A stretch of DNA of 20,698 nt from a virus: positions 1-20,698 of IMG/VR virus record IMGVR_UViG_3300048928_000250. One strand, given 5' to 3'. Each line of letters opens with the position of its first letter. The stretch's first letter is position 1. Below the pieces are notes generated by a model that was not told the DNA's origin, did not search any database, and worked only from the letters and a program-made list of their open reading frames with translations. Of this stretch, positions 18,769 to 20,698 are shown one piece after another. The position numbers and the translations under genes were made by a program.

Positions 18769-18968
18769 CTGCGCCGCTCCCGTAGCTCCTGACAACTGGT
18801 GCAGGTTTCGCAACCCGCCACCATTTGCTGCCGCTTCATCGGAATTGGCTCGCCGCAGTCATCGCAGAACTCCGAACTGGGCTTTGTCACGGGACGAGGA
18901 CGACGCTGAAGAGCCACTTGAAGGTGGTAATCGGCTTGATCATTGGCTACATCGATCACATCAACCAT
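18765..18968 (-). CDS. TraR/DksA-type C4 zinc-finger protein
   Basis: Encodes 67 residues from the ATG at 18968; GGAGG is 9 bases upstream and the longer frame has no such signal. The N-terminus MVDVIDVANDQADYHLQVAL is helical. The C-terminal half has two Cys pairs, CDDCGEPIPMKRQ and CETCTSCQELRE, giving the C-x2-C ... C-x2-C finger of the TraR/DksA family. Full TraR is of similar size (about 73 aa) and binds RNA polymerase through its secondary channel, altering promoter choice. A role in tuning host or phage transcription is likely. It overlaps the CII-like gene by 8 bp and the primase by 4 bp. Confidence 0.88.
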   Translation of the reverse strand: MVDVIDVANDQADYHLQVALQRRPRPVTKPSSEFCDDCGEPIPMKRQQMVAGCETCTSCQELRERRR

Positions 18969-19449
18969 GGGTGCTTTCCTCCATGGCCTGGCGAGCGCCC
19001 GCCATGATAGCCAGCACCTGGCGGATAACATCCATGCCCCGCTGCTCCAGGTCGACCACCTCTACCGGCGTCCAGACGTTGTCTGCGGCCCCATCATGCA
19101 GGCTCCCGACAAACTCGCTGGACTCCTCAAGGAGCTTTGCAACCGCCTGCAGCGCCTCATTGGTCGCTGGCACTGGTTCAGGGCGGTACCAGACTGCACC
19201 GGCTGGACGCACCAAGGCATCAAGCAGACGCGGACTTGCAGTCAACTGAACGATCTCTTCAAGCTCGTCGGGAGTGGGCCAGCGGCGCTCTTCGTTGTGG
19301 TTGAGCTTCTTTTGAAGCGTGTCCACATCCAGCCCCATGTCGAAGGCCAGCCTGGTCATTCCGCCGTGATAGTCACGACCTGCGCGATAGAGCGCCTGCC
19401 GCAAGGTGAGCACCGGGCCTGCACCCGGCAATAGATCAATGCGACTCAT
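18961..19449 (-). CDS. CII-like phage regulatory protein
   Basis: Encodes 162 residues. The N-terminal region LTLRQALYRAGRDYHGGMTR and LAFDMGLDVDTLQKKLN (about 15-50) is an HTH of the kind seen in the phage regulatory protein CII (CP76) family, followed by RRWPTPDELEEIVQLT. The C-terminal half is helical (EALQAVAKLLEESSEFVGSL) and likely oligomerises. Family members help establish lysogeny. Its place directly downstream of cro and a structured leader, and upstream of the replication genes, is that of cII in lambdoid phages. GAGGA is 9 bases upstream of the ATG but lies in the loop of a hairpin (19451-19473), which may limit translation. Confidence 0.85.
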   Translation of the reverse strand: MSRIDLLPGAGPVLTLRQALYRAGRDYHGGMTRLAFDMGLDVDTLQKKLNHNEERRWPTPDELEEIVQLTASPRLLDALVRPAGAVWYRPEPVPATNEALQAVAKLLEESSEFVGSLHDGAADNVWTPVEVVDLEQRGMDVIRQVLAIMAGARQAMEESTHG

Positions 19450-19450
19450 A

Positions 19451-19473
19451 ACCGTAAATCCTCGGTTTACGGT
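19451..19473 (-). promoter_or_regulatory. Hairpin with the CII ribosome binding site in its loop
   Basis: Perfect 8-bp inverted repeat ACCGTAAA/TTTACGGT separated by 7 bases. In the minus-strand mRNA the loop is CCGAGGA, which contains the GAGGA used by the CII-like gene, and the stem ends one base before the ATG. This could modulate translation, or be a DNA operator; the sequence alone cannot separate the two. Confidence 0.55.
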
Positions 19474-19563
19474 GTAGTCACAGGGCTTTCAACGTCCTAT
19501 CCTGTGAATACGACCGGTGTGTTGTGCTTTGCGTGCTGTGCGGGCATTTCACGCGGTTTTAGT

Positions 19564-19671
19564 CATCCGTCGGATCTTGTGGTGAGAGGCGACCGGATGG
19601 CGGGGTACATCGGCGCTATGCGCCGTTCACGCTGAGCTAGGGGATTCTTGTGGTGAGAGGCCCTAGCTCAG
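19564..19671. ncRNA. Twin hairpins with shared loop: candidate structured leader or antisense RNA
   Basis: Two inverted repeats have unrelated stems but the same loop. At 19632-19671 an 11-bp perfect stem (CTGAGCTAGGG with its complement) encloses the loop GATTCTTGTGGTGAGAGG. At 19564-19599 a 6+3 bp stem (CATCCG, TCG; one bulge) encloses GATCTTGTGGTGAGAGG. A small 6-bp hairpin (CGGCGC-TAT-GCGCCG, 19611-19625) lies between. In the cro-cII transcript (minus strand) the loops read CCUCUCACCACAAG, complementary to a GGUGAGAGG-type ribosome binding site. C4-like antisense RNAs and HK022 put-like antiterminators are the two known phage elements it most suggests; no family match was tested. Confidence 0.5.
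19576..19661 (+). repeat. 15-bp direct repeat CTTGTGGTGAGAGGC
   Basis: Exact copies lie at 19576-19590 and 19647-19661, 71 bp apart. They form the loops of the two hairpins described for 19564-19671. Confidence 0.8.
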
Positions 19672-19693
19672 TCGTCCTTACTTCTGCTGTTTT

Positions 19694-19873
19694 TCAGCAA
19701 TCTTTTTTTTGCTCTTCATAGAACAGCTCAATAGCCTTACCCACCTCATAGCGGACAGCTGCGCCCTTTGTGGCGCGGTAGATCGTTGGCTGTGTCACAC
19801 CGACACGATCTGCAATCGCGCGCTGCGAAAAGCCCAACTCAATCAGTTTTTGAAGCATCTCTTGAATGGTCAT
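19694..19873 (-). CDS. Cro-like HTH repressor
   Basis: Encodes 59 residues from the ATG at 19873; a GTG three codons earlier is possible. Almost the whole protein is one HTH domain: MTIQEMLQKLIELGF, SQRAIADRVGVTQPTIYRAT (about residues 16-35), then a short C-terminal helix GKAIELFYEEQKKDC. It diverges from the CI-like gene, with promoter and operators in between, the arrangement of cro/cI in lambdoid phages. It would repress the repressor gene and set the lytic course. The ribosome binding site (GGTGGG) is weak. The A-rich lysine codons near the end make the 3' part AT-rich compared with neighbours. Confidence 0.88.
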   Translation of the reverse strand: MTIQEMLQKLIELGFSQRAIADRVGVTQPTIYRATKGAAVRYEVGKAIELFYEEQKKDC

Positions 19874-19882
19874 TGCACCCAC

Positions 19883-20649: not shown

Positions 20650-20667
20650 CAATACGAATAGGTATTG
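20650..20667. promoter_or_regulatory. Candidate CI operator OL site (palindromic)
   Basis: CAATACGAATAGGTATTG is a perfect 6-bp inverted repeat with a 6-bp centre. Its half-site CAATAC is shared with the site at 20675. It overlaps the start of the -35 of the promoter at 20665. Confidence 0.6.
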
Positions 20668-20693
20668 ACCATCTAAATTCGTTTAAGTATTGT
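20665..20693 (+). promoter_or_regulatory. Promoter downstream of cI (PL-like)
   Basis: TTGACC (20665-20670) and TATTGT (20688-20693) are 17 bp apart on the plus strand. It directs transcription out of the window, away from cI, presumably into the other early operon. Operators overlap both hexamers. Confidence 0.65.
20675..20692 (+). promoter_or_regulatory. Candidate CI operator OL site
   Basis: AAATTCGTTTAAGTATTG; its complement CAATACTTAAACGAATTT contains ATAC-NN-AAACGAAT as at 19907 and 19943. It ends one base before the end of the -10, identical in position and orientation to the 19907 site at the cro promoter. Confidence 0.65.
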
Positions 20694-20698
20694 CTGGA

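Follow-up and report, generated by a model that had tools for sequence, protein, structure and literature searches.

The window analyzed here is the whole 20,698-base contig of an IMG/VR virus record, the right part of which hosts a primase gene, a DksA-like zinc finger, CII, cro and a CI-type repressor gene (+ strand). The CII-like gene is of the CP76 type (Phage_CP76, phrog_101) and was annotated at 18961..19449 on the (−) strand, while the Cro-type HTH gene occupies 19694..19882 on the same strand. The C-terminus of the latter (positions 19694-19720) is frameshifted by one extra A relative to a close relative, L034: the window has eight consecutive A where the frame of L034 implies seven, so that EEQKKIAEKQQK in the implied frame becomes EEQKKDC. 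Either a genuine frameshift or a sequencing error would explain this difference. Between the two genes lie two hairpins, described here on the (+) strand. H1 (module 2; 19632..19671) adjoins the cro stop codon and has fully complementary arms (19632-19642 and 19661-19671; 11/11) around an 18-nt loop, GATTCTTGTGGTGAGAGG, and H2 (module 1; 19564..19599) has 9 pairs and one bulged C (arms 19564-19572 and 19590-19599) around a 17-nt loop, GATCTTGTGGTGAGAGG. The stems of H1 and H2 show no sequence relation, and the two hairpins share a perfect 16-nt repeat, TCTTGTGGTGAGAGGC, in copies 71 nt apart. The exact arms and this repeat bear out the original prediction of two hairpins with different stems and an identical loop. 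That description had overlooked a small third hairpin (CGGCGC-TAT-GCGCCG; 19611..19625, + strand), which forms the head of module 2 between H2 and H1, as well as copies of the loop core in the leftward operon of relatives.

Next, we examined how the element is distributed. A search of IMG/VR viral contigs for the two-loop pattern yielded 104 stretches, 100 of which have the same layout, i.e., a Cro-type gene followed by one to three hairpins and then a CP76-type CII gene (the four outside it being L013, L040, L065 and L072); because of these counts, the pattern is far from chance. Hairpins usually begin no more than ~20 nt from the cro stop codon, and CII follows ~110-140 nt past the last loop. 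An unbiased sample, 80 loci retrieved solely through the CII protein, also had hairpins between cro and CII in one, two or three copies, including a compact form, GGGA-CUCUCACC-UCCC, and the distant Pseudomonas aeruginosa phage Lodos has a cro-CII hairpin too. The named hosts of true double-loop matches were Pseudomonas species; the remaining matches of that scan resemble chance. Three unrelated metagenome contigs (L251, L258 and L265) contain several TGGTGAGAGG repeats, apparently as repetitive sequence and not as the cro-CII element. The Cro-type genes beside the hairpins are of several unrelated kinds, with at least five non-homologous ones in the same slot beside the otherwise conserved element among L003-L106, and this variety at the hairpin boundary is modular exchange. 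In the cro sense, the loop core common to these hairpins reads CUCUCAC; RsmA/CsrA, Hfq/Crc and anti-Shine-Dalgarno mimicry were dropped as explanations because the conserved core does not fit the known motifs. We found no earlier description of the element in the literature searched, which had most subscription journals outside its reach.

The stems vary freely in sequence and yet keep their pairing, as expected from the proposal that they are under selection as RNA structure, and the homologues revealed neither stems that had come unpaired nor loops that had diverged. The imperfect pairs indicate the strand on which this selection acts. Read in the cro sense, the cro-adjacent hairpin, with 87 unique stems of 12 bp, has 887 Watson-Crick cells, 14 G.U and 104 A.C (14 versus 104, binomial 3.6e-18, relatedness ignored), and the stem changes between T-A and C-G and between G-C and A-T go via A.C, which is G.U on the opposite strand. 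Single and middle hairpins have the same wobble bias, whereas neither strand is preferred in the CII-proximal hairpin (18 G.U, 14 A.C) and a strong hairpin in the left operon is free of the bias (biased versus unbiased groups, Fisher 6e-9, relatedness ignored). The wobbles are thus G.U on the strand opposite cro and CII, and the structure is therefore best read as an RNA opposite to cro, an assignment that these sequence comparisons support well.

On that opposite strand, 34 single-hairpin phages share one conserved RNA of ~65-85 nt, with two back-to-back stem-loops of ~30 and ~40 nt (SL1 and SL2) and a fold that begins at the predicted first nucleotide. In an alignment of the 34 distinct antisense RNAs from these phages (A3), 98.6% of the cells are paired and double changes occur in 9 of the 22 pairs (35 cells), both of which exceed all 500 shuffles and all slid controls. 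The G.U excess is evident in both elements, with 240 Watson-Crick, 87 G.U and 0 A.C cells in SL1 and 368, 33 and 3, respectively, in SL2. RNAalifold on A3 yielded −31.85 kcal/mol for the antisense strand versus −22.33 kcal/mol for the cro-sense strand. The global fold energies of the two strands were set aside, since even at an unstructured left-operon site (site ii, below) the purine-rich strand gave the better fold. The SL1 loop presents UGUGCUGUG (in and beside the loop) and the SL2 loop GGUGAGAG, and their respective complements, CACAGCACA (box 2) and CUCUCAC (box 1), recur at gene starts of the PL operon. Longer forms of the RNA have SL2 repeated, partly together with SL1. The complement of box 2 returns in module 3 of most three-hairpin phages and is missing from module 2 of two-hairpin phages (75/75), including the small third hairpin of the window clade. 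For the window itself, a two-module RNA is predicted at 19510..~19687 on the (+) strand (both ends being predictions), starting with ACGACC as in nearly all homologues and folding at −79.1 kcal/mol. R1, a covariance model built only from the antisense RNA, matches its second module (19598-19682, + strand; E-value 5.7e-5). The region complementary to the CACAGCACA box (GUGUUGUGC...GUGCUGUGC) lies at 19516..19541 (+), and its left-operon partner is weaker in the window clade than in single-hairpin relatives.

Comparison of leaders revealed a candidate promoter for this RNA, with a predicted −35 hexamer, TAGTCA, at 19475..19480 and a predicted −10 hexamer, TATCCT, at 19498..19503 (both + strand), the latter being found at a nearly constant place in 127 of 150 leaders. 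The full pattern, TAG(C/T)CA-17-TATCCT, is present in 120 of 150 unique leaders with a spacer variable in sequence and fixed in length, and the RNA start, ACGACC, follows six nucleotides past the second hexamer. A generic sigma-70 scan did not find this promoter, which is a poor match to the consensus. Just upstream of the CII start lies a palindrome, CCGTAAA-N7-TTTACGG (19452..19472), conserved in 147 of 150 unique homologous leaders, of which 137 have arms of the CCGTAAA-TTTACGG type and 10 of the CCGTTAA-TTAACGG type; elsewhere in complete relatives there is at most one further one-mismatch match. The palindrome may bind an activator or repressor of the leftward promoter, or it may form a hairpin that encloses the Shine-Dalgarno sequence of CII.

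In phage lambda, PRE at the start of CII gives rise to a leftward antisense transcript across the cro-CII region, and here the conserved hexamers adjoin the palindrome at the CII start. The leftward RNA might be only the structured 5′ leader or attenuator of a CII-activated cI message of the PRE type, with the left boxes unrelated or bound by something else. The promoter does point at cI, and the T-rich stretch after H1 possibly resembles a terminator: a terminator-like element, TGCTGTTTTTCAGCA-ATCTTTTTTT, is found downstream of H1 at 19685..19709 (+), but it is weak, with 0.8 such elements expected by chance, and the U-tracts after H1 are likewise weak and 3-5 nt off the stem. A leader of this kind leaves unexplained both the amplification of the loop to two or three copies and the recurrence of the same loop and box-2 sequences where left-operon genes start in relatives, and we consider it quite unlikely.

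Further analysis of the leftward operon showed that CUCUCAC(C) recurs there in the mRNA sense in nearly all relatives with enough sequence, and that the box-bearing genes are the first PL gene, in its 5′ leader, plus one or two more. Three sites can be told apart: (i) within a hairpin in the 5′ leader, 19-23 nt before the ATG of the first PL gene (phrog_13491); (ii) 22-36 nt before a DUF2303 gene, with box 1 only and no strong stem; and (iii) in a hairpin rich in GC, 40-50 nt ahead of a small membrane-like gene. Box 2 follows box 1 at sites (i) and (iii), although at PL it is degraded in many two-hairpin phages, and another gene start has box 2 without box 1. The sequence CAGCACATG occurs 135 times in the left-operon sense, compared with 3.5 on average when the sequence is permuted, 10 in the left antisense and 20 in the right sense, the 135 occurrences not being independent, as the genes form homologous families. 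The product of the first PL gene matches no Pfam family and has no known domain, and its predicted structure is of low confidence (pLDDT 71, pTM 0.46).

The window contig stops inside the expected PL target: positions 20665..20698 (+) contain the PL promoter (TTGACC-17-TATTGT) and the first 5 nt of the PL leader hairpin, and the remainder of the predicted target would lie just beyond the contig end, where the sequence of L034 goes on as ...tattgtctggaccgcaaccCTCTCACCaccgaggtccagaaATG. A scan of the window placed GTGAGAG inside the two hairpins alone and found no CTCTCAC on that strand. As these two loops are the only GTGAGAG copies, we rejected base pairing of the cro-sense loops to GGUGAGAGG motifs elsewhere, and the GGUGAGAGG ribosome binding sites named in the original prediction give way to CUCUCAC and CACAGCACA at PL-operon gene starts as the apparent targets.

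The box complements stand in the antisense RNA in an order fit for antiparallel pairing. When duplexes with the RNA were ranked over ~56 gene starts per phage, site (iii) took first place in 61 of 69 phages, site (i) fell within the top three in 59 of 104, and site (ii) was not favored; the ranking is partly circular, in that the shared sequence had defined the sites. In an own-versus-swapped test of box 2, 0 of 2000 swaps overall and 132 of 2000 within length classes reached the observed value, i.e., the result is significant overall only. Compensatory change between RNA and target showed no clear covariation, that of the seed being only suggestive, and L139 has CTCTGACC in the cro-adjacent hairpin yet keeps CTCTCACA at PL.

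Two observations concern the surroundings of the boxes. In seven relatives (L004, where it lies 3.26 kb left of CII, L022, L046, L158, L165, L187 and L290), a left-operon start motif, GGCACAGCACATG, has no CUCUCAC upstream, and the genes starting with it are apparently unrelated (MSKARPFIDTLRDIEAGG... and MKATDTNDF.../MKPTDTAEF...). In L158, L165 and other single-hairpin loci, the ATG of the box-2 copy is in frame with CII, giving an extension MHIGRGRRIG..., and this frame is closed in L281 and the window clade; the conserved upstream peptide HIGRGRRIG... was rejected as coding owing to the in-frame stops in the window and L281.

The same sites can be read as acting in the sense transcripts. 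The original prediction had offered put-like antitermination as an alternative, and in a nut- or put-like reading the CUCUCAC hairpins in both early transcripts would give terminator readthrough, either unaided or helped by a phage protein, for instance the first PL product. The lambda nut site combines boxA with a boxB hairpin and works with a cognate N protein; the loop core here resembles boxA only loosely. The same loop does lie in the sense of both the PL and PR transcripts. The first PL gene occupies the place of lambda N, and the positions fit remarkably well those of HK022 putL, which directly follows PL, and putR, which lies ~270 nt downstream of the PR start (PMC9378689). The proposal fits the position, in the PL leader and after cro, but conflicts with the wobble pairs, which lie on the opposite strand, and with the boxes at gene starts, where more copies stand at fixed short distances before internal start codons (one of them stemless) and box 2 occurs alone at another gene start. 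Moreover, the sequence close downstream of the elements showed no conserved intrinsic terminator, and we regard antitermination as unlikely.

The fixed distance to start codons, together with a core that is invariant across phages without compensatory change, would also suit a phage- or host-encoded RNA-binding protein that recognizes CUCUCAC/CACAGCAC in sense messages and controls translation of the early regulon. Such a protein would not account for the strand of the wobble pairs at cro-CII, the cro-CII copy has no close start codon to control, and no candidate emerged, the first PL product being the domainless, low-confidence model described above; we judge this reading to be improbable.

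We then returned to the antisense RNA and used R1 on bacterial genomes. Hits came from 28 of the 299 Pseudomonas genomes sampled, and 145 other genomes of the same order gave none. Nine prophage regions were fetched by R1 alone, eight of which were oriented by script and scored; all eight had the PL-leader site at the usual distance and leftward promoter-like hexamers, two of them with at least one changed base. The antisense RNA family would thus be widespread in Pseudomonas prophages.

Taken together, we propose, with a probability of about 0.6, that the cro-CII hairpins are part of a C4-like, multi-target antisense RNA that restricts translation of the left operon. Comparison among phages shows a conserved structure, its strand, the promoter-like hexamers and the presence of both boxes at left gene starts; transcription, pairing in trans, the direction of the effect and control by CII are inferences. 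The RNA would be made leftward, on the (+) strand of the window, from the promoter beside the CII start and opposite to the cro-CII message. Its SL1 and SL2 loops would pair with the CACAGCACA and CUCUCAC boxes, respectively, at translation starts of the PL operon, always including that of the first PL gene, and pairing would most likely block translation of the left-operon genes, in the way that ant is blocked by C4 and sar RNAs. The location of the promoter next to CII suggests that the RNA is probably used during the establishment of lysogeny. A more specific version is tentative: a CII-switched RNA with one to three loop modules may silence several genes of the leftward early operon in trans at the commitment to lysogeny, constituting a multi-target regulon internal to one phage and an inverted copy of its own target leaders. 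This would link the lysogeny activator to the shut-off of early lytic genes.

Most of what is known about antisense RNAs in temperate phages comes from a few enterobacterial models, in which each RNA has one target. Judging from the conserved features above, many temperate Pseudomonas phages probably encode, opposite cro and CII, a small RNA that is a new virus-made antisense regulator, which would differ from known phage antisense RNAs in acting on several genes of the opposite operon, in its repeated modules and in a promoter located next to CII. C4 of P1/P7, the best analogy, is a structured RNA of 77 nt that is complementary to the region around an mRNA ribosome binding site (PMC12197685). 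The RNA described here is, likewise, a short structured phage RNA with complementary stretches probably held in loops, its GGUGAGAG and UGUGCUGUG being complementary to CUCUCAC and CACAGCACA, respectively, where left-operon genes start. The C4-type antisense action proposed originally thus holds as an analogy but not in its direction, as the functional RNA would run opposite to cro with the loop GGUGAGAG. C4 represses a single target, ant, and controls immunity, whereas the predicted targets here are phrog_13491, DUF2303 and small membrane-like genes, i.e., several genes of the opposite operon, and the RNA would have its own promoter, lies antisense between cro and CII and carries its modules one to three times. 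A C4 covariance search, which the original prediction had suggested, gave no match in the window region (Rfam, E-value up to 5) or in relatives; across seven loci nothing reached the Rfam gathering score, and a typical single-hairpin locus searched at E-values up to 10 gave only chance microRNA matches at high E-values and none to C4. Because it does not match the C4 model, we do not file the RNA as C4. The sar RNA of phage P22, also a small antisense RNA, prevents a lytic gene of the phage from being translated (PMC12197685); it acts on ant, unlike the RNA described here, any sequence relation having been compared through Rfam only. The aQ and OOP RNAs provide antisense control of the lysis-lysogeny choice (PMC12197685), but these and the PRE transcript act in cis on overlapping genes, whereas the complementary boxes here lie in trans, in the PL operon. 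Finally, the arrangement is similar to HK022 putL and putR in having stem-loops just after PL and after cro, but put acts in cis, in the sense transcript, on RNA polymerase and suppresses termination without the help of phage proteins, whereas the cro-CII structure is conserved on the opposite strand, and the covariance model separates this antisense RNA from put- and nut-type hairpins.
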